Positions 26,343 to 45,196 of a stretch of DNA of 64,000 nucleotides are shown here, in pieces; within the stretch, counting starts at the first letter, position 1, and each line of letters opens with the position of its first letter. The translations under genes and the position numbers were made by a program. Below the pieces are notes generated by a model. It did no database searches and was not told the origin of the DNA. It was given only the letters and a program-made list of their open reading frames with translations. The stretch comes from Ancylothrix sp. D3o. Its GTDB lineage: Bacteria > Cyanobacteriota > Cyanobacteriia > Cyanobacteriales > Oscillatoriaceae. Location: contig NZ_JAMXEX010000001.1 of the NCBI RefSeq assembly GCF_025370775.1, positions 372,001 through 436,000 on the forward strand. The letters are read 5' to 3'.

Positions 26343-28853
26343 TTATCGACTTTCCCCGAAATAATCTTGTTCCAGCTTATTTTTTATTCTTTTAATCAAG
26401 CGTTGGCTTGCCTGTACCATACTTTCTTTAAAGTTTATCTTGGCAAGTTCGATGCTTTGTAAATCCCTAATATCTTGTCGCGCCAGCAGAAAATAAGTTC
26501 TCATCTCTCCTTTACCTTTGACTTGAATAATGCCGCGTTTTTCAAAAACATATTTATGGCGTAAAAGTCTATGAGTGGTATCGGAAATGTGAATTCGTCC
26601 GGGGCTGCCGTGAGATTCCATGCGCGAAGCAGTGTTAACAGTATCGCCCCACAAATCGTAAATAAACTTTTTGATGCCAATCACACCGGCCACCACTGGC
26701 CCGGAATGAATGCCAATTCGGATATTAAAATTAAGGTTATTTTGGGCATTAAATTCAGCAATTGCCCCTTGCATATCCAGCGCCATTTCTGCAATTGCTT
26801 CAGCATGATTAACACGGCGTTTTGGCAGTCCTCCCACCACCATATAGGCATCACCAATTGTTTTGATTTTTTCTAAGCCATAATGTTCGGTGAGCCGGTC
26901 AAAAGAGGAAAAAATTTGATTTAACAAACTCACTAAGGCTATCGGAGAAAGCGAGGAGGCAATTTCTGTAAAACCCACAATATCTGCAAACAAAACTGTT
27001 ACCGCTGCAAAACTTTCTGCAATCGTTGCGTGTTCTTGTTTGAGCCGGTCAGCAATTGCTTCGGGTAAAATATTCAGCAAAAGCCGCTCGGTTTGTTCCT
27101 GTTCGTGACGCAGCGCTTCTTCAGCTAGTAAACGTTGTGTAATATCTCGAAAAATTCCCCGCGTCGCCACCGGCTTGCCTTCGACAAATTTACAATTCAC
27201 ACTGCCTTCTACAAAGATTCTTTGGCCGGTTTTACTGCGAAATGCCGCTTGTACCCGCTGGCATTGTTCCCCAGAAATTACCCGTTGAAACATCTCTAAA
27301 CATTGCTCTTTGCAATCGGGATCTAACACCTCAAAAACGCTCATATTTGCGAGGTCTGCTTCGCTATAACCCAAGGTTTCTTTCCAGGCGCGATTCACAT
27401 AAATAAAACTGCCATCTGGGCCTACTGATTGAATTAAATCTGTGGCATTTTCAAATAAATCTCGATAGCGCTCTTCGCTTTCAACAAGGGCGATTTCGGC
27501 TCGTTTCCGCTTCATAAATTGCCCAATTTGAGAAGCAATAGCGTTCATTGTTTGCAGCAAATCTTGATCTGGTTGCTGGATCTCTCGGTGGAAGAAAACC
27601 ATCACTCCCAAAACTTCCCCATTGCTGAGTACAGGAATGCTAAATACTGTGTGTAAATTGTTTTCTTCTGCTACTTTTTTTCGCCTAAATAAGGGTTCTT
27701 GCAAAACATCACTCACCCACAAAGATGAGCGAGTTGCCCAAACATGACCCGGTAAATAGGCATCCCAAGCAAAGACTAAGCTTTTTGAAAATTCGATGAA
27801 TTCTCCACTAACGGCTGAGGGACGCGACCAAATTTCTGCACATTTGAGTATTTTTGAAGGTGGTAGGAAATCTCGATGTAGATTAAACTCGCCCCCGCGA
27901 TTTGGAGAAGTTTCTTCTACTATCCAAAACTCGCCAAGTGTCCAGCCTAACACCTCGCAAATTGCTAACAAAATTTTCGGGAGTGCTTGTTCAAAATTGG
28001 TAGCTTCTGATAAAATTCTGCCGATAGCATACTGTGCGGTTAAACGTTGCTGGGTGCGCTGGCGTTCTGTGATGTTTCGCCCAATGTAAATAATGTCTTT
28101 AAGACCGGCTTCTGTGTTGGCATTGCTATCGCTATCTGGGGCGATCCTAGAGCAAGAAAATTCAACGATAATTTTTTGGCCCGCTTTGGTATGGCAAACT
28201 AACTCAATATCTTTTAATAACTCTCCATCCCCTAAAATAGCCTCTTCCGCTATCAAATTTAAAAAATTTCTGTCGGCGATCAAAATTGAAATATTTTCGC
28301 CTTGAAGTTCTTCTTGTTCGTAGCCAAACAAGTTTTCGGCAGCGGGGTTCACAGATTTAATTTGTCCCGAATTTTTCGTCACCACCAAAGCTTCTGCCAT
28401 CGAGCTAATAATTTGATTGATATAATTGCGTGAATTTGATAACGCTGCTAACAAAAGATGCGTTTCATTAGAACTCTGCACCAATCTCTGCTCCAGCATC
28501 ATTCGATCTGTCACATCTTCAAAAAATACAATTAGTTTTTTTTCTTGGCTTTCTTCATCTTGGTATAAATTTACATAAAAATCAAGATATAAAGGCGCTC
28601 TATCGTTAGGAAACCGGCCAATGCTTTTTAACTCAAAACTTTTTTCTTCGCCGCAAAAAACGCCCTCCAGCAATTCTTCAGTGCCAATCAATTCAGGAAA
28701 ACCAACACGCACATCATTCCCCACACCTACCTCATCAGGACAATCAGCAAACCGCTTGACATCCGAAGATAGCTCTACAATCATCAAATTTTCATCCAAT
28801 GTCAGGTACTCTAAATGATCGGGGACGAATAATTTTTGTAAAACTTTTTTCAT
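26343..28853 (-). CDS. Class III adenylate cyclase with PAS and GAF domains
   Basis: 836 aa, no membrane segment. Order: an N-terminal module (1-130) shared with the next upstream gene, a PAS domain (about 140-265), GAF (285-455), PAS (460-585), a helical linker, and a class III cyclase domain (610-795). Metal-binding aspartates lie in LFADIVGFT and GDAYMV. The purine-selecting lysine (EKIKTIGDAY) and aspartate (YDLWGDTVN) point to ATP, and transition-state Asn and Arg are present in NTASRMES, so it should make cAMP. It ends 50 bp downstream of the kinase gene, in the same direction, so the two are probably co-transcribed. Confidence 0.9.
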   Translation of the reverse strand: MKKVLQKLFVPDHLEYLTLDENLMIVELSSDVKRFADCPDEVGVGNDVRVGFPELIGTEELLEGVFCGEEKSFELKSIGRFPNDRAPLYLDFYVNLYQDEESQEKKLIVFFEDVTDRMMLEQRLVQSSNETHLLLAALSNSRNYINQIISSMAEALVVTKNSGQIKSVNPAAENLFGYEQEELQGENISILIADRNFLNLIAEEAILGDGELLKDIELVCHTKAGQKIIVEFSCSRIAPDSDSNANTEAGLKDIIYIGRNITERQRTQQRLTAQYAIGRILSEATNFEQALPKILLAICEVLGWTLGEFWIVEETSPNRGGEFNLHRDFLPPSKILKCAEIWSRPSAVSGEFIEFSKSLVFAWDAYLPGHVWATRSSLWVSDVLQEPLFRRKKVAEENNLHTVFSIPVLSNGEVLGVMVFFHREIQQPDQDLLQTMNAIASQIGQFMKRKRAEIALVESEERYRDLFENATDLIQSVGPDGSFIYVNRAWKETLGYSEADLANMSVFEVLDPDCKEQCLEMFQRVISGEQCQRVQAAFRSKTGQRIFVEGSVNCKFVEGKPVATRGIFRDITQRLLAEEALRHEQEQTERLLLNILPEAIADRLKQEHATIAESFAAVTVLFADIVGFTEIASSLSPIALVSLLNQIFSSFDRLTEHYGLEKIKTIGDAYMVVGGLPKRRVNHAEAIAEMALDMQGAIAEFNAQNNLNFNIRIGIHSGPVVAGVIGIKKFIYDLWGDTVNTASRMESHGSPGRIHISDTTHRLLRHKYVFEKRGIIQVKGKGEMRTYFLLARQDIRDLQSIELAKINFKESMVQASQRLIKRIKNKLEQDYFGESR

Positions 28854-28903
28854 GTCGGCTCTTTATTCCCTACACCCTGATTTTTATCGAAGCTGATTTA
28901 AGT

Positions 28904-30427
28904 TTACTGCATAGTGTTTGTTTTGAGGGGCAAAATCACTTGAAACACTGTCCCTTTCCCTACTTCACTCCTCATTATAATTTCACCGCCGTGTAAATCT
29001 ACCGAGCTTTTAACAATTGCCAATCCCAAACCCGTACCAGAAATATTATTAACATTTCGACCCCGATAAAACGACTCAAAAAGTCTTTCTTGATCTTCTT
29101 TTAAAATACCCATCCCTTCATCTTCAATCTCAAAACTTACATTGTCTTGTTCTTGGCGCAAATCAAAACGTACCATCCCCCCTTGGGGAGAGTATTTAAT
29201 CGCATTTGAAAGTAAATTAACAAGAATTTGTCTGAGCAATTTTTCATCCACCCAACCAAAAACTTTTTCAGGAGGGCAGGTAAATTTTAGCGTATGTTTT
29301 TTGCTTTTGCTAAACTGCATTTCTGCAACAATTTCTTCAGAAAACTTTTTCACATCCAACAAGCTCGGATGAAACGTCAGCTTTCCGGCCTCAGCCTTAC
29401 TGAGCAGCAGCACCTCATCCAACATATCGGCCATCTGTCGGATAGCATTTTCGATCATTTTAAAATACTGCTGAACTTTTGGTTTATATTTGTCCGTCGT
29501 CTCATAAAAATTTTCTAATAACTCAACAGAAGTTAAAATAACTGTCAGCGGGGTGCGAAATTCGTGAGAAGTCATCGAAATAAAATTTGCCCGCATTTGA
29601 TTGAGTTCTTTTTGTGTCTCTAATGCCTTTTGGGTTTCGGCTTCTGCCCGTTTTCGCTCGGTGATATCCCTGCCAATATATACAAAATCTCGCTTCTCAA
29701 TGCCATCAGCCTGAATACAGGAACAAGAAAAATCTACTAAAAAATTATCGCCCTCTTTTTTGCTGCAAACTACTTCTCTATTCCTTAACAATTCCGAGCC
29801 GTTTAAACAAGGCAGTTGGTTTTTGATGTCGTCAATAAATTGCTGATCTTTAATCAGCAGCGAAACCGGCTGGCCGAGCAATTCTGCTTCACTATAGCCA
29901 AACAATTTTTGAGCCGCCGGATTAATCGTTTTTATTTGCCCCGAACTGGTTGTCACCAATAGGGCATCTGCCATAGAGGTAATAATTTTATGAATATAAT
30001 CTTGCGAACTCGCTAAAGCACTCACCAGCAGGCTTGCTTCATTGGCTCTTTGAACTAAAGCCTGCTTTAAAACCATGTTTTCTGTGACATCTTCTAACAA
30101 AATTAGCAGCAAAGGTTCAAGGGAAATTTCATCTTGATGCTGGCTGATATATAAGTCTATATAAAACGGCTTGTCTCCTTCTGCAAAGCGGGCAATTCCT
30201 TTTACTTCAAAGCTGGCTTTTTTCCCCTCGAAAACGGCCTTTAAAACTTCTTCAGCCCCAATTAATTCAGGAAAACTGGCCCGAACATCTTTACCCGGAG
30301 AAACTTCTTCGGGCCGATCAGCAAACTGCCGCACCGCTCTCGATGTTTCCAAAATCATTAAGTTGCGATCCACTGATAAATATTCAATGTGGCGAGGTGC
30401 CAAGAGTTTCTTTAAAAAAGGGTTCAT
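28904..30427 (-). CDS. PAS histidine kinase sharing the cyclase N-terminal module
   Basis: 507 aa, soluble. Residues 1-130 (starting MNPFLKKLLAPRHIEYLSVD) match the first 130 residues of the downstream cyclase closely, and the PAS domain after it (135-255) also matches. A HisKA domain follows with His288 in MTSHEFRTPL, then HATPase with EDEGMGI and GTGLGLAIV. No receiver is attached. A decayed GTPase gene lies 81 bp upstream on the same strand, and the adenylate cyclase lies 50 bp downstream, so this looks like an operon. The signal and partner are unknown. Confidence 0.88.
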   Translation of the reverse strand: MNPFLKKLLAPRHIEYLSVDRNLMILETSRAVRQFADRPEEVSPGKDVRASFPELIGAEEVLKAVFEGKKASFEVKGIARFAEGDKPFYIDLYISQHQDEISLEPLLLILLEDVTENMVLKQALVQRANEASLLVSALASSQDYIHKIITSMADALLVTTSSGQIKTINPAAQKLFGYSEAELLGQPVSLLIKDQQFIDDIKNQLPCLNGSELLRNREVVCSKKEGDNFLVDFSCSCIQADGIEKRDFVYIGRDITERKRAEAETQKALETQKELNQMRANFISMTSHEFRTPLTVILTSVELLENFYETTDKYKPKVQQYFKMIENAIRQMADMLDEVLLLSKAEAGKLTFHPSLLDVKKFSEEIVAEMQFSKSKKHTLKFTCPPEKVFGWVDEKLLRQILVNLLSNAIKYSPQGGMVRFDLRQEQDNVSFEIEDEGMGILKEDQERLFESFYRGRNVNNISGTGLGLAIVKSSVDLHGGEIIMRSEVGKGTVFQVILPLKTNTMQ

Positions 30428-30508
30428 GCAGACTCTATTATTTTGTAGGTGATATTGTGCAGAAGTTCATTTACTTATGGATCGTCTGGGGTTGTTTGGA
30501 TCAATAAA

Positions 30509-30865
30509 TCAAACGGTACAATTTTGATTTTCCGACTTCAATGCCAGCATTTCTTGGCTCGGCTTTGCCTGCTTAACTTCAAGGAAATTAAAAACAAAAA
30601 TTAGCAAAGAAACCGCTCCGCTGGCTGCTCGCAAATAACTGACCCTCAGTCGGTTAAAAATCGCTTGTTTTAAAAACAAAATAATCAACGGTAAAACTCT
30701 TTTCTTCGTCAAATGAGCAGCGTCTAATTCCACAGTTCTGCAAAAATTTTTAACGCCCAATGTCGAAAGCCAAGAGCCTCCCATCAGCCAGTGTTCTACC
30801 CCACCCATCCGCGTATTTTTGCCAAAAAGTCCCATCAAGCATATTCCCTTAGATATCCTTTCCAT
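30509..30865 (-). pseudogene. Decayed Rab/Ras-like small GTPase
   Basis: The frame is open for 118 codons but reads as a broken copy of the intact GTPase at 33036-33551. Matching parts in order: ISKGICLMGLFG with ISKKMCMIGDFG; LSTLGVKNFCRTVEL with LSTVGVKISRKTVEI; LRVSYLRAASGAVSLL with GIAPTYLQGAAGVLVV. The P-loop has lost about two codons (GLFGKNTRM against GDFGVGKTS). The DxxG of switch II is gone. The C-terminal half with NKxD is missing. So it cannot bind GTP. It lies just upstream of the kinase and cyclase genes, where an intact GTPase may once have belonged to the operon. Confidence 0.75.
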
Positions 30866-31262
30866 GATTAGGGGCTATTGCCAATATTGAGCATTTTTTC
30901 AAATCGTAAAAATTGATTTCCTCATCTCCGTTATTTAAGCCAAGTATGATAAAATTCTATTTTAGTTTATTTATATTATCTGATCATCATGCCCGTAAGT
31001 TCAAGACAGACCGGCAACTCTAGCTCAACAGCAAGCCTGTGGCTAGAAAAGCTTGGCTCTATAGGCGTTTAACAAGCAACTTGCCGGTGGAATGCCTTTA
31101 GGGCCAAGCCCAAATCCAAAGGGCAACCAAGCCCCCAGCCCCAGAGATTTGCAAAGTTTAACGAAGTAAAGATAAATTCGCTGACAACATTTGTAAATAA
31201 ATTTAATGCCAGAAAGAGCATTCCCAGCGAACAACAAACCGTGAGGGCGCTAAAAAAACAAT
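30866..31262. other. Divergent intergenic region, pseudo-GTPase / PDE
   Basis: About 400 bp. It should contain the promoters of the kinase operon and of the REC-GGDEF-EAL gene. I see no gene, repeat or clear operator. Confidence 0.35.
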
Positions 31263-32999
31263 ATGAAAAAAATTTTAGTCATAGAAGACGAGGATAGCAT
31301 TCGCAGTAACCTCCTAGAAATGCTCAGCGTGGGAGGATTTGAAGCCATCGGGGCAGAAAATGGTCAAGTCGGAGTGCACCTAGCCCGCCTTGAGCATCCG
31401 GACATAATTTTGTGTGACATAATGATGCCCCTCCTCGACGGTTATGGAGTTTTGAGTGCCCTACAACAAGATGCCCTCACTTCAACTATTCCCGTTATTT
31501 GTTTGACGGCTAAATCCGAGCGTTCTGATTTGCGAAAGGCAATGGAAATGGGCGCCAGCGATTACCTCACCAAACCCTTTACCCGCGTTGAACTGCTCAA
31601 AGCCATCAGCACCCAACTCGACAAACTCGACAAAATAAAGCGCATTCAAAATACCGCCGTCTCCGAAGCAATCTCGCACCTAAATGACTTGGTATATTAC
31701 GACAGTTTAACCAACCTGCCCAACCGGCTGGTGTTGCAAGACCGGTTTGAGCAAGCCCTCGCGCCGGTGTGGGCCACTCACACAGTGCCGGTGGCAGTCC
31801 TCAGCTTAGACCAATTTGATCGCCTCCACAGCAGCCTCGGAACCGATTACACCGATTTATTATTACAAGCTGTCCAAGAGCGAATTTCACCCTGCATCGG
31901 CACCAACGGCACCGTCGCGCGCCTCAACAGCGATCAGCTTGCCTTAATTTTGCCGCCGATTCTTGACAAACAAGAAGCCTCTGGGGAGGCGGTTTTAATT
32001 CTTAACAGTTTATCCACCGCTTTTAGCCTGCAAAAATATCAAGTTTTTATCACCGGCAGTCTGGGCATTTCCCTTTATCCCTCGGATGGCAACGATATTG
32101 ACAGCCTCCTCAAAGCCGCCAGCACCGCCATGAAAGTAGCCAAACAAAAAGGCGGCAATTGCTATCAGGTGTACAACCGGGAACTTCAAGAAAAATCCTA
32201 TGATTGTTTAATGTTAGAACTTGAATTACACACTTGCTTAGAAAAAAACCAACTTCAAGTTTATTACCAGCCCCAAGTTGACACCAAAACAGGCAAAATA
32301 GTCGCAGCCGAAGCCCTCTGCCGGTGGTATCATCCCGAAAAAGGTTTTATCCCACCCAGCGAATTTATCCCCATTGCCGAACAAACCGGCCTCATTACCT
32401 ATCTTGACCGCTGCATCTTGCAAAACGTTTGCCAACAACTAAAAATCTGGCGAAATGCCGGTTATGACCTCTCTATTGCCGTCAACCTTTCGGCGGCTCA
32501 ATTCCAACAAGCCAATTTAACTCAGCAAATTCTGGACATCCTCAAAGCCACCGCTGTTGACCCCCAATGGCTCGAATTCGAGCTAACAGAAACGGCAGTT
32601 GTCCAAAACCAAGAAACAGCCAAAACTACCCTTCAAGAACTCAAAGCTGCCGGTCTTAATCTCGCCTTAGACGATTTTGGCACCGGCTATTCTTCCTTAA
32701 GTTATTTACAAAATTTTCCCTTTGACTCAATCAAAATTGACCGCAGCTTTATTAATAACCTTTCCCAAAATTCCAAAAACACCGCCATTATCAACGCCAT
32801 CATTCAACTTGCCAGGAGTTTAAATTTAAAATCCATTGCCGAAGGAGTAGAAACCCAAGCTCAACAAGACTTTATCCGCCAGTGTGGTTGTGATCTCATG
32901 CAGGGTTATTGGTTTAGCCCTCCCGTTACCGCCGCAGCATTTGAAGAAATGTTAAAACAACAACAATACGGCACATTAAAGCCCATTGCTAACTATTAA
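31263..32999 (+). CDS. REC-GGDEF-EAL response regulator, probable c-di-GMP phosphodiesterase
   Basis: 578 aa. Receiver domain with Asp52 in LCDIMMPLLDGYG and a C-terminal KPF switch; GGDEF domain (about 140-310) in which the catalytic motif is NSDQL, so it should not make c-di-GMP; EAL domain (about 325-570) with EALCRW, NLSAAQF, ELTE, LDDFGTGYSS, IKIDRSFI, AEGVET and MQGYW motifs, so it should be active. The likely role is phosphorylation-controlled breakdown of c-di-GMP. It faces the intact GTPase gene across only 36 bp and points away from the decayed one. Confidence 0.92.
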   Translation: MKKILVIEDEDSIRSNLLEMLSVGGFEAIGAENGQVGVHLARLEHPDIILCDIMMPLLDGYGVLSALQQDALTSTIPVICLTAKSERSDLRKAMEMGASDYLTKPFTRVELLKAISTQLDKLDKIKRIQNTAVSEAISHLNDLVYYDSLTNLPNRLVLQDRFEQALAPVWATHTVPVAVLSLDQFDRLHSSLGTDYTDLLLQAVQERISPCIGTNGTVARLNSDQLALILPPILDKQEASGEAVLILNSLSTAFSLQKYQVFITGSLGISLYPSDGNDIDSLLKAASTAMKVAKQKGGNCYQVYNRELQEKSYDCLMLELELHTCLEKNQLQVYYQPQVDTKTGKIVAAEALCRWYHPEKGFIPPSEFIPIAEQTGLITYLDRCILQNVCQQLKIWRNAGYDLSIAVNLSAAQFQQANLTQQILDILKATAVDPQWLEFELTETAVVQNQETAKTTLQELKAAGLNLALDDFGTGYSSLSYLQNFPFDSIKIDRSFINNLSQNSKNTAIINAIIQLARSLNLKSIAEGVETQAQQDFIRQCGCDLMQGYWFSPPVTAAAFEEMLKQQQYGTLKPIANY

Positions 33000-40890: not shown

Positions 40891-42891
40891 ATGGAAACAA
40901 TCAGCAACCCACCCCTTAATTCACCCACACCTGATCTCGAAGATAATAGCGTTCAATCAGGAGAAGCTTACTTTATCCGACATGGGGAAAGTACCAGTAA
41001 CGAGCGTAACATTTTTGCCGGCATTTTAGATGTAGGACTCACCGCCTTTGGCAAACTGCAAGCACGTCGCGCCGGCACTGATCTTAAGAAAAAAGGTATC
41101 AAATTTGATGCCGTTTATGTTTCCCACATGAGACGAGCACGGCAAACTTGTGAAATTGCTCTTGCAGAAAGTCAAGCCCTAAAATCTCCTGATATTCCTA
41201 TTCATGTAGATCACCGCATTAGCGAGCGTTCTTTTGGTCTTTTTGCCGGCAGAAACTTAAATTTATTGCGTTTAGCTTTGGGTTATGAAGGCTTCGAGGA
41301 AATGTTACATTCCCATAACGAAGCACCACCAACCGGCGAAAAAATTGCCCAAGTTTATGCCCGCGCTTCCAGCTTTTATGAAGAAAAAGTTGTGCCGCAT
41401 TTAAAAAGAGGTGAAAACGTTTTAGTTGTTTGCCACCAGTATGTTTTAGAACCGCTGGCACTGCATTTAAGCCATTTACCACCAAGTGCTTATCATACTC
41501 TGAAATTGCCGAACGGAAAAGCACTGAGTCGGGAAGAGTTAGTTAAATATCGGGATACAGAATCAAGTGGTGCAGCTTCTCTGCGGAAAAAGATTAACGA
41601 TCTTTCAACTATGTGGGCAATTATGCTTTATGCCGGAGCATTTTTGCTAGGTACTTTAATTAAAGCTGTCACCGTTTCCGCAGGAATGCCGGCAGAATTA
41701 TTTAGAGCAATTATTGTTCTGTGCCTTGGCATTTCCACGTTTTATACTTACCTAGACATTGACTTTGCCGCCAGTAAGAAAAAAGTCACACCAACGATTA
41801 AAAATATCGTCAATTTTTGGATGGTAGCTCGCTGGGTTGTGGGGCTTTTCTTAATTTTTTCTGGAGTTTTGTCTCAAAATTCAGGGGATTTTTACAAAAT
41901 CTTGTGGGTGCTTTTCTGGATGGTGCCGCCGGCTCTTACTTCCTCAGTTTTATCAATTTTGTGGGGAGGCAATCTTTATCCTTCGGCTGTTATTTCCAGA
42001 ACCTTATCAATTATTGCGCCGCTGGCACTTCTCGGTACTTTAATTGTCGCCGGAAATCGCTTACCTATTAACGTTGCGAGTTTACAATTTTTCTTTCTGA
42101 TTTTGATTTTGGGTTTAGCGGTACCCGGAACTCTTGCTCAGTTGTGGCGTTCTAACTCTCCTGTTGACTCAAACCGGCATAGCAAAGAATGGAAATTTAT
42201 CGGCGTTTTGGCGGTTGCATTTATGGCATTAGCAACCGGCTTTCAATTTGCCCCAGATACTTTAATTTCGGATGTTTTTTCGCCGGTTGATACTAATCGC
42301 TCATTTATCGGTTTTCAACAGCTTGCCGTAGCACTTTTGGTATTTTTGTTAATGCGGGTTTTGGCAGTATTAACTGTAACTTTTGCCAAAGGCAAATTAA
42401 ATCATGCCGAAGCCCAAGATGCTTACATTTTGCTTGTCAATCCCAACTTTTTCTTGTGGGCGGCTCTTTTTAGCGGTGTAACTACAGATGCGAGTTCGGA
42501 TACTTTAAGCTATGCAATTTTTTGGGCCGGTTTAGGGTTTTTCTGCATTCCTGTACTTGAGCAAATTTTGTTTATGAATGCCTTTACGTCAGACATTCTT
42601 CGGGAAACCTTAAGGTCTTCAAGAATGGCAACAGAAGACGTGAAAAAACTTTTCCATAATTTAGATGCCGATGGAAGTGGAGTCCTCGACAAACCCGAAA
42701 TTATTGAGCTATTGGGGTTAATTGAAGATATGACTGTCGGTGAACGCAGTTCCGAAGAAATGCGTAGTTACATCACCGATTATCTTTTCAACATTCTTGA
42801 TAATGACAAAAATGGCACGGTTGATTTAAAAGAATTGGAAGACTATGTATCAACCTATGGGATGGTTGTCAACTTAAACATTGCGGAATAA
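40891..42891 (+). CDS. Histidine phosphatase - membrane - EF-hand fusion
   Basis: 666 aa with an unusual order. Residues 24-210 form a phosphoglycerate-mutase-like histidine phosphatase: RHG (30-32) with nucleophile His31, the ERSFGLFAG loop and a second catalytic His182 in VVCHQY. Residues 240-565 hold about eight to ten membrane segments that I cannot assign. Residues 585-655 carry two EF-hands: DADGSGVLDKPE (592-603) and DNDKNGTVDLKE (637-648), each with calcium ligands at positions 1, 3, 5 and 12. The phosphatase resembles dPGM (RHGESTSNE, DVGLTAFG) but is not a normal glycolytic mutase. A calcium-controlled membrane protein with a cytoplasmic phosphatase head is my inference. Confidence 0.85.
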   Translation: METISNPPLNSPTPDLEDNSVQSGEAYFIRHGESTSNERNIFAGILDVGLTAFGKLQARRAGTDLKKKGIKFDAVYVSHMRRARQTCEIALAESQALKSPDIPIHVDHRISERSFGLFAGRNLNLLRLALGYEGFEEMLHSHNEAPPTGEKIAQVYARASSFYEEKVVPHLKRGENVLVVCHQYVLEPLALHLSHLPPSAYHTLKLPNGKALSREELVKYRDTESSGAASLRKKINDLSTMWAIMLYAGAFLLGTLIKAVTVSAGMPAELFRAIIVLCLGISTFYTYLDIDFAASKKKVTPTIKNIVNFWMVARWVVGLFLIFSGVLSQNSGDFYKILWVLFWMVPPALTSSVLSILWGGNLYPSAVISRTLSIIAPLALLGTLIVAGNRLPINVASLQFFFLILILGLAVPGTLAQLWRSNSPVDSNRHSKEWKFIGVLAVAFMALATGFQFAPDTLISDVFSPVDTNRSFIGFQQLAVALLVFLLMRVLAVLTVTFAKGKLNHAEAQDAYILLVNPNFFLWAALFSGVTTDASSDTLSYAIFWAGLGFFCIPVLEQILFMNAFTSDILRETLRSSRMATEDVKKLFHNLDADGSGVLDKPEIIELLGLIEDMTVGERSSEEMRSYITDYLFNILDNDKNGTVDLKELEDYVSTYGMVVNLNIAE

Positions 42892-42976: not shown

Positions 42977-44863
42977 TTAAGCTTGATATTTTGAACCATC
43001 CGGCATTGTTGCGCCTTCTAAAAACGCTCCTTTTAACTCAGAAATACTCACCTTTGCATCTTTTAAATTTGCTCCATTCAAATACGAACCCTCCAAAATT
43101 GCCCCACTCAAACTCGCATTCCTCAAATTTACACCACTTAAATTTGCCTTACTCAAATCAGCACAAATCAAATTTGCACCCTTGAGATTTGCACTACTTA
43201 AATTAACCTCCATCAACTTCGCAAAACTCAAGTCCGCCTCCACAAGATTTGCACCGCTGAGTTTACATAAACTGAGATTTGCATTATTTAAATTCGCTTC
43301 TCTCAAATTAGCATTACTCAAATCACTTTCACTTAAATTTGCTTCACTCAAATTTGCTTGTGGCAAGTTAATCTTCACTAACTCAGCCCCCGAAACATCT
43401 AAACCTCTCAGCGAAACACCATCCTCATTCAAATCTTGCAAAGCTAAAATTCTCGCATAGCTGACTTTTACATGATGGGCTGCATCAATGGTACTCCAAG
43501 CTTGGTAATGAAATTGTTTTCGTCGATCTGGCGCTTCTTTAATAAATAAAACCACCGCCACCACTAAACTAATCGCATCAGCGCCATTTAACACCTCTCC
43601 TAGCCACGATTCTTCATCTCCAATTACATACACTACAGACATCACAACTGCGGCAATTAATGCAACTTTCCAAGCCGGCAATGACCAAAATATCTCGTTT
43701 AATTTAGCCGGCAATTCTTTGAGAGCCTTTCCCCAAGGCTGTTGAGAAACTAGCTCTTTAATTTGTTGATACTTTTCCGTTATGTTGTTCAAAAATTCTT
43801 GAACAATCTCGTTATTAAATCCAAAGCTGAATAAACCCGGCTTTGCTTTGGAACCCTCAACTTCGTTTAATTCTTCTTTTGCTTCTGGCTTAGATTCTGG
43901 CGGTTTTTGTTCTCGCACAGAAGCGGCAGAAATTTCTCTTGCACCTTTTAACATTTGCGCTGTAATTAATCGCAACGCATCCCCCCACGCATCCTTAACT
44001 TCTTTTGTCCATTCGTCGCCCAAATATTCCTCAAAAGTGCTCAATAAAGCTTGTCCAACGGCAGGGTAATATTTGGGAATTGCCCCATAACCAATATGTC
44101 TTGCTCCCAAAACATTTAAAACCTGTGCCAATGCTTCTGGATTTCGCAGACTTTCTACAACAACTACTAAAGAATTTATCAGTTTTTTGTGTTGGTTGGT
44201 CATCTCTGTTTTAGCAAACAACGGTTTTACTTCTGGATGCGCTTCAAAGAGATATTCATAAAATCTGGCAGCAAATTCCTCGGCGCGAGGTTTAATTTTT
44301 TCAAAGCTATTTTCTAGCAGTTCCACCGGCAACTCTTTTGTCACCGAGGAGTTTTCTTCTTCGGTAATAGATGCCGGTATTTCTGTTGGCTTCACCTCTT
44401 CTTCAGTAATTAAAGTTTTGTCTTTAACGTTAGGTTTTTCTGATTTTTCAGTTACCGATTCTATCCCCGCACCTTTTAACATTTGAGCGCTAATGGCAGC
44501 AAAGGCATCTACCCAAGCTTTTTTAACTTCCGGTGTCCAATCTTTCTCTAAATATTGCTCAAAAGTTGTTAATAAAGCTTGTCCAACCGCAGGATAATAT
44601 TCAGAAATTGCCCCATAACCAACGTGCCTGGCTCCCAAGGCATTTAAAACTTGTCCTAACGCTTCGGGATTTCGCAGACTTTCTACCACCAAAACCAAAG
44701 AACTTAACAGCTTTTTTTGTTGCTTTTCCATATCGGTTTTAGCAAAAAGCGGTTTTACCTCTGGATAGGCAATAAACAAGTTTTCGTAAAAGCTTACTGC
44801 AAATTGATCGGCGCGAGGTTTAACTTGCTCAAAACTTTGCTCTAAAAGTTCCACATCTAACAT
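42977..44863 (-). CDS. Double-globin membrane protein with pentapeptide repeats
   Basis: 628 aa. Two globin domains (about 3-135 and 180-310) are near copies of each other. Each keeps a proximal His in GARHVGYG or GARHIGYG (His80, His256), a B10-like Tyr in FYENLF/FYEYLF (26 and 202) and an E7-like Gln (48 and 224), as in flavohaemoglobin-type globins. There is no reductase domain. A charged linker, two hydrophobic segments (about 396-415 and 427-442) and a right-handed pentapeptide-repeat region of A(N/D)LxxA units (about 485-620) follow. The ATG at 44863 has GGAG eight bases upstream. It follows the 105-aa gene by 15 bp, so the two form an operon. Confidence 0.88.
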   Translation of the reverse strand: MLDVELLEQSFEQVKPRADQFAVSFYENLFIAYPEVKPLFAKTDMEKQQKKLLSSLVLVVESLRNPEALGQVLNALGARHVGYGAISEYYPAVGQALLTTFEQYLEKDWTPEVKKAWVDAFAAISAQMLKGAGIESVTEKSEKPNVKDKTLITEEEVKPTEIPASITEEENSSVTKELPVELLENSFEKIKPRAEEFAARFYEYLFEAHPEVKPLFAKTEMTNQHKKLINSLVVVVESLRNPEALAQVLNVLGARHIGYGAIPKYYPAVGQALLSTFEEYLGDEWTKEVKDAWGDALRLITAQMLKGAREISAASVREQKPPESKPEAKEELNEVEGSKAKPGLFSFGFNNEIVQEFLNNITEKYQQIKELVSQQPWGKALKELPAKLNEIFWSLPAWKVALIAAVVMSVVYVIGDEESWLGEVLNGADAISLVVAVVLFIKEAPDRRKQFHYQAWSTIDAAHHVKVSYARILALQDLNEDGVSLRGLDVSGAELVKINLPQANLSEANLSESDLSNANLREANLNNANLSLCKLSGANLVEADLSFAKLMEVNLSSANLKGANLICADLSKANLSGVNLRNASLSGAILEGSYLNGANLKDAKVSISELKGAFLEGATMPDGSKYQA

Positions 44864-44878
44864 TATCAATTCTCCATT

Positions 44879-45196
44879 TTACAAATTCAAGTTTTCTAGC
44901 TCTTGCGACAAAATTGCCATAAATTCATCGGAATTTTTAATCCCCATTTCTCCCAAAGCTTTCCATTCCTCTGAAGTGTAATCTAAATCCTGCCCCATGA
45001 CATCTTGCGTCCAATAAGCTAAATTAGACGGATTTTCCATGAGGTCATAAGTCAATTTTAAGAGATCCAAACCTTGCGTTTTTTCACGGACTTTGACCGT
45101 CAAACAAAAAGTTAATAATTTGGCTAAGTTGCTGTCGGGGGGAATGGAAATTAAAAAAGCCATCGTCTGAGCAAGGGTAAATCTGTCTAATTTCAT
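44879..45196 (-). CDS. Hypothetical protein upstream of the globin fusion
   Basis: 105 aa, mostly helical by composition, without membrane or signal segments; I do not recognise it. The C-terminal half is acidic (LDYTSEEWKALGEMG). The start is supported by AAGGAGAT. Being co-transcribed with the double globin, it may assist or regulate it, but nothing in the sequence shows how. Confidence 0.7.
   Translation of the reverse strand: MKLDRFTLAQTMAFLISIPPDSNLAKLLTFCLTVKVREKTQGLDLLKLTYDLMENPSNLAYWTQDVMGQDLDYTSEEWKALGEMGIKNSDEFMAILSQELENLNL

Follow-up and report, generated by a model that had tools for sequence, protein, structure and literature searches.

A conserved cyanobacterial gene joining tandem flavohaemoglobin-like globins to a predicted membrane hairpin and a pentapeptide-repeat solenoid

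Fusions that involve a globin are, in bacteria, usually classed as either flavohaemoglobins or globin-coupled sensors. The NOS-globins and HGbRL, in which a globin is fused to a Roadblock domain, joined the chimeric classes after a census made in 2006. Globins of the flavohaemoglobin-like (F) lineage usually carry out NO/O2 chemistry. The 2006 census listed flavohaemoglobins and globin-coupled sensors as the only chimeric classes (PMC1457004). In syNOS, a globin acting as NO dioxygenase is paired with a pseudoglobin (PMC12922734). Membrane association of globins was proposed to aid their reduction by membrane-bound reductases (PMC3820574). Here we describe a cyanobacterial gene in which two globins are followed by a membrane hairpin and pentapeptide repeats. 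No description of a globin and a pentapeptide repeat in one protein was found in the open-licence papers searched, a description elsewhere being possible; nor did these papers yield one of cyanobacterial tail-anchored tandem globins or of the partner family presented below.

The window analysed is a 64,000-nucleotide stretch of the genome of Ancylothrix sp. D3o. The fusion gene lies on its minus strand (42977-44863) and encodes, in this order, two globin domains, a linker, two hydrophobic helices and pentapeptide repeats. The longest reading of the frame covers 42977-44869, with a TTG start at 44869 and 630 aa. The ATG at 44863, giving 629 aa and a protein that begins M-L-D-V-E-L-L, is the likelier start, with a GGAG 8 nt ahead of it. 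No other PF00042 globin gene was detected in the source genome. The order of two globins, a membrane region and a pentapeptide solenoid had been read from the letters alone, and Pfam, hydropathy and the relatives agree with it.

Globin domain A spans approximately residues 2-133 (44465-44860, minus strand) and domain B approximately residues 179-311 (43930-44330, same strand), as judged from Pfam and alignments to solved globins. Both PF00042 matches are over the cut-off (E 1.4e-37). The closest solved relatives of the two domains are Hell's Gate globin I, HGbRL, Vitreoscilla haemoglobin (VHb) and flavohaemoglobins. When aligned with 3S1I (Hell's Gate globin I), 3WFW (HGbRL) and 1VHB (VHb), both domains have Tyr B10, Phe CD1, Gln E7, Leu E11 and His F8, which bears out the earlier assignment of the proximal His, B10 Tyr and E7 Gln in both globins. 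Both would be expected to bind haem. The NCBI model of NO-inducible flavohaemoproteins also matches the two domains (E 2e-38, 132 bits for a cut-off of 432); the score stays under this whole-protein cut-off because the reductase part is missing. Indeed, Pfam finds no FAD/NAD reductase domain in the 630-aa protein. PF00042 is the best Pfam model for the fusion protein, and any match to the Protoglobin model is weaker than E 0.1. The domains show the 3/3 globin domain, with F8 His and CD1 Phe, expected of the single-domain type in the F lineage of the globin superfamily. By sequence, the globins of the fusion thus belong to the F lineage and not to the globin-coupled sensors.

The pocket is strongly conserved. 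Among 75 globin domains from such fusions, CD1 Phe is found in 75, B10 Tyr and E7 Gln in 73 each and F8 His in 71. When G5 Tyr is considered with Tyr B10, Gln E7 and His F8, each is present in 71-75 of the 75 domains as well as in nearly all of 91 related domains. The four domains devoid of F8 His include the lone globins of Oscillatoria sp. PCC 10802 (Asp at F8) and of Microseira wollei (Gln), so haem is not essential in every member.

Two hydrophobic helices, at approximately residues 397-415 and 423-441 (43540-43680, minus strand), are predicted from hydropathy to form a membrane hairpin, also conserved in the relatives. They are separated by an acidic loop, GDEESWLGEVLNGAD, and followed by a basic stretch, KEAPDRRKQ. 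Because of these charges, the globins and the solenoid are probably both cytoplasmic according to the positive-inside rule. The solenoid corresponds to approximately residues 475-625 (42980-43450, minus strand). Pfam detects PF00805 in five stretches (E 9.5e-43), and the tandem A(D/N)LXX repeats, which form a beta solenoid, place this region in the pentapeptide-repeat class. The AlphaFold2 model of the full fusion, built from 4 sequences (pLDDT 61, pTM 0.32), is usable for the globin helices and the solenoid only and not for the placement of the domains. In this model, the part that runs as a solenoid to the C-terminus starts near residue 511 and has block pLDDT values of 80-94. Search for structural similarities using Foldseek gave 2J8K and HetL (3DU1) as matches. 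Pfam shows only pentapeptide repeats after the hairpin, and no C-terminal signalling output domain was found there. Two functions known for other proteins were rejected. A Qnr- or MfpA-like gyrase protector is discarded by the scores (at most 39 bits against 240-500 for the Qnr models, and 53 against 360 for MfpA). A component of anti-phage defence is not supported by PADLOC, where neither the fusion nor the 105-aa partner nor the phosphatase-EF-hand protein described below gave a match.

Relatives were collected by a genome scan, which yielded 79 named loci (L numbers hereafter). The architecture search suggested in the sequence-only reading finds the same globin-TM-pentapeptide fusion, with 1, 2 or 3 globins, at about 45 cyanobacterial loci. 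The hosts include Anabaena, Cylindrospermum, Nostoc, Scytonema, Hassallia, Brasilonema, Rhizonema and Microcoleus as well as Phormidium, Tychonema, Oscillatoria PCC 10802, Okeania, Drouetiella, Elainella, Microseira and others. Two globins are present in most fusions, one in L147-L156 for instance, and three in Okeania L141 and L142. Two-globin fusions, at 35-39% identity, also occur on two contigs of metagenome-assembled genomes binned as Flavobacteriales (L154:4244-5977 and L170:294-2069). Since the genes flanking them appear Bacteroidota-like, as read from translations, transfer between phyla seems more likely than contamination for these two contigs, with the reserve that both belong to metagenome-assembled genomes. 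For five close pairs of fusions, dN/dS is 0.20-0.35 in four cases and 0.47 in the fifth. F8 His in 71/75 domains and dN/dS values mostly around 0.2-0.35 indicate, at the sequence level, a working protein under purifying selection. The recurrence at about 45 loci and this selection rule out a misassembly or a chance ORF.

Domains A and B of the source protein share 73% identity at the protein level, 77% at the DNA level and 58% at third codon positions; in relatives, the A/B identity reaches 95%. They are therefore duplicates, as had been proposed, but "near copies" was too strong a term. Internal duplication also holds as their origin, not as one event. One old duplication, from which distinct A and B clades would descend, is rejected (AU test, p 0.0002), the number of copies varies from 1 to 3, and sister A/B pairs recur. 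The phylogeny of the two globins, which had been put forward as a check, does not separate A and B into two clades. The globin trees are built on few columns and contain many weak forks; within these limits, domains A and B of a given protein often group as sisters, as in Hassallia, Brasilonema and Phormidium. In a smaller tree, the A/B pair of the source protein is supported at 98/78. Because the grouping of all A domains is rejected and A/B sisters are seen in several lineages, the sequences argue that the globin domains have been re-duplicated or homogenised inside lineages. Variable copy number and homogenisation of A and B would favour a role in dosage or capacity over two specialised sensor domains.

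The strongest gene association of the fusion, absent from the sequence-only reading, is a small ORF located 15 bp upstream on the same strand (44879-45196, minus strand). It encodes a conserved helical protein of 105 aa. Each of the 10 genomes that have a close fusion also has a close homologue of this partner, against 1 of the 378 others (388 genomes in total). At 35/50 loci the partner gene lies near the fusion, in every case on its strand; in Okeania it is downstream. The protein has no match in Pfam or PADLOC and only a chance-level match in NCBIfam. AlphaFold2 predicts six helices (pLDDT 77). From a model of this quality, Foldseek and VIA-align gave nothing usable, and the absent match is not a sign of a new fold.

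Some one-globin fusions have a degraded haem site. In Oscillatoria PCC 10802, where the globin has Asp at F8, the partner is missing from the genome. In Microseira wollei, with Gln at F8, the partner is broken by a repeat-like insert. In Chlorogloea, the globin has His at E7 and Phe at E11, and no partner was found. Thus, in a comparison made post hoc on small numbers, the one-globin fusions with a degraded site (L173, L152 and L168) lack the partner or have a broken copy, and, with the same reserve, 13/14 of those with a normal site have it intact. The Microseira wollei partner is split at L152:8374-8900 by an insert of about 150 bp.

Other neighbours recur less often. The gene-neighbour links come for the most part from related genomes, without phylogenetic correction. 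A gene for a NADPH oxidase with EF hands, a ferric-reductase TM domain, and FAD and NAD domains is found near 8/50 loci, and 7 of these 8 genes are on the same strand as the fusion. The oxidase of Cylindrospermum sp. FACHB-282 is very close to csNOX5 of Cylindrospermum stagnale, scoring 553 bits over 281 residues against its crystal structures (5O0X/5O0T). csNOX5 is activated by Ca2+ (PMC7317449). Full-length homologues of this NOX5 type occur in 9/388 genomes, 3 of them beside the fusion or the partner and 6 in one other genus; all 9 genomes hold the globin clade of the fusion. In the source genome, no NOX5 homologue passed the threshold used, so the oxidase is not obligatory.

A second Ca2+-related neighbour is present in the source locus itself. 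This gene (40891-42891, plus strand), convergent with the fusion, encodes a 666-aa protein made of a His_Phos_1 phosphatase domain, several TM segments and a C-terminal EF-hand pair. It is found near 16/50 loci including this one, and is co-directional with the fusion in the 15 others. Of the 388 genomes, 9 carry it, all with the globin clade of the fusion. When genomes with the oxidase or the phosphatase-EF-hand gene are taken together, 17/17 have the globin clade against a base rate of 94/388, a figure that ignores kinship, includes part of the discovery set and, outside the fusion-bearing genomes, is supported by three genera. In Anabaena catenula and A. lutea, the oxidase, the partner, the phosphatase/EF-hand gene and the fusion follow each other in this order and are all co-directional.

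Genes for a dCache-HAMP-nucleotide cyclase and a cNMP-binding MscS channel adjoin the fusion in L123, L126 and L134, with cyclases as neighbours at about 4-5 of the 50 loci. Bestrophins and stand-alone globins likewise belong to the less frequent neighbours. In two further loci (L103:11129-15466 and L112:7963-12073), a dCache-HAMP-nucleotide cyclase carries its own C-terminal globin and is followed by a cNMP-binding MscS gene, an arrangement that makes a candidate globin-cyclase-channel pathway. At L132:5522-10168, a gene for a 1548-aa NOS with an EF-hand pair and globin-like domains is located 2 kb downstream of the fusion; such an adjacency was seen once. In the window, genes for a PAS/GAF nucleotide cyclase, a PAS histidine kinase and a GGDEF-EAL response regulator cluster at 26343-32999, and no link to the globin gene was seen. 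The sequence-only reading stated that the usual outputs of globin-coupled proteins are lacking. This is true of the protein itself and not of the neighbourhoods of its relatives, which hold cyclases, MscS channels and EF-hand oxidases.

We tentatively favour, at somewhat less than an even chance, a membrane-tethered globin array devoted to NO/O2 chemistry, with NO dioxygenation served by a separate flavin reductase, within a Ca2+/ROS/NO module. This reading is preferred because the pockets are of the flavohaemoglobin type, the ligands are near invariant, the dosage varies and the globins are tethered to the membrane. Two interchangeable globins, or 1-3 in the relatives, would face the cytoplasm, held by the two-helix hairpin. 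They would bind O2 and oxidise NO to nitrate at the membrane, with electrons supplied by a separate flavin reductase, probably a membrane flavoenzyme; the syNOS globin, itself an NO dioxygenase (PMC12922734), is a close precedent. The pentapeptide rod beside them would probably offer a docking or assembly surface, and the 105-aa partner may act in the same module. Where present, the EF-hand NADPH oxidase encoded next to the fusion could be its electron donor or its client. Haem binding, topology, NO dioxygenation, electron source and protein-protein contacts are all inferred. Against this reading, the fusion has no reductase domain, the source genome has no NOX5 homologue, four of the 75 domains have lost F8 His, a NOS lies beside the fusion at one locus only, and the cyclase and MscS neighbours fit signalling equally well.

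Because of these cyclase and channel neighbours, a role as gas sensor is a serious rival, even if on balance we consider it rather unlikely. Binding of O2, NO or CO would shift the hairpin and the solenoid and send a signal to the 105-aa protein, a cyclase or an ion channel. The cyclase and cNMP-binding MscS genes adjoining the fusion in several genomes fit this, as do the related cyclases that bear their own globin. The partner, lost or broken where the haem site is degraded and intact in 13/14 normal cases (post hoc, small numbers), behaves as if it needed a working globin. However, the globins are of the F lineage and not of the globin-coupled-sensor lineage, the fusion has no output domain, and cyclases adjoin few loci. 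Moreover, the domains drift freely in number and identity, as input domains seldom do. The "oxygen- or NO-responsive" protein of the sequence-only reading is thus possible, but F-lineage globins that are interchangeable and variable in number do not make it a globin-coupled sensor.

Vitreoscilla haemoglobin has been proposed to supply O2 to an oxidase. By analogy, the array might concentrate or remove O2 at the membrane for NOX5 or a respiratory oxidase. The tethered arrays of variable size, their specific adjacency to an O2-consuming NADPH oxidase and a pocket that aligns with that of VHb go in this direction. However, pockets with Tyr B10 and Gln E7 usually release O2 slowly, as established for Hell's Gate globin I, and are poor for delivery. 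In addition, NOX5 is missing from many fusion genomes including the source genome. We regard this role as improbable. Finally, it is very improbable that the globin folds serve mainly as protein-binding modules on a TM-pentapeptide chassis, with haem chemistry secondary or lost: the globin-free unit is widespread, a few members have no proximal His and syNOS pairs a haem-free pseudoglobin with a true globin (PMC12922734), but the haem-pocket residues are near invariant in the fusions (71-75/75 domains).

The reading as an NO/O2 chemistry unit can be extended. The array of 1-3 globins, the small partner, a Ca2+-gated NOX5-type oxidase and the EF-hand phosphatase might form a dedicated membrane system controlling superoxide, NO and O2 chemistry, an idea that we consider doubtful as a whole. 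NOX5 is a Ca2+-activated superoxide producer studied mainly in eukaryotes, and csNOX5 is the structural model for human NOX5. The recurrent neighbourhood offers a bacterial setting for NOX5 with its natural companions and bears on the management of NO and ROS at the membranes of oxygen-producing cells. If the dedicated system exists, csNOX5 would gain a physiological context in bacteria. For work on function, the fixed small partner gene is a ready starting point.

Compared with known systems, the fusion is another arrangement, conserved and selected, in which multiplied globins are pinned to the membrane. Hell's Gate globin I and HGbRL, single-domain F globins from Methylacidiphilum, have the same Tyr B10, Gln E7, Leu E11 and His F8. 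Unlike the fusion, each contains a single globin and has neither membrane hairpin nor pentapeptide repeats. The NO dioxygenase flavohaemoglobin (Hmp) has a homologous globin domain and pocket, whereas the fusion has no FAD/NAD reductase domain and possesses an extra globin, TM helices and a solenoid. The tandem of globin and pseudoglobin in syNOS resembles that of the fusion, a fold search giving about 346 aligned columns with a high rmsd. However, syNOS is a NOS enzyme with haem in only one of its two globin folds, and it has neither TM hairpin nor pentapeptide repeats. Globin-coupled sensors such as HemAT and the globin-diguanylate cyclases likewise associate a globin with another module. 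They differ by their globin lineage and by a kinase, cyclase or methyl-accepting output that the fusion lacks.

Two cyanobacterial families each share one half of the fusion. The tail-anchored globins have the same clade, tandem domains and a membrane tether, but this tether is a single C-terminal TM helix and there are no pentapeptide repeats. A large set of such proteins, with 1-3 near-identical domains, was seen at L025, L026, L033, L034, L041, L042, L044, L049, L159-L174 and L198. At L025, L033 and L046, a separate pentapeptide protein of 308-327 aa adjoins tail-anchored globins. The globin-free 2TM-pentapeptide unit is common in cyanobacteria (L061-L080 for example). It has the same two TM helices and solenoid, and the motifs HY(Q/E)AW and SYARI.ALQDLN.DGVSL are found in this order with or without globins; only the globins make the difference. 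From these comparisons, the fusion looks like globins of the tail-anchored type joined to a 2TM-pentapeptide unit.
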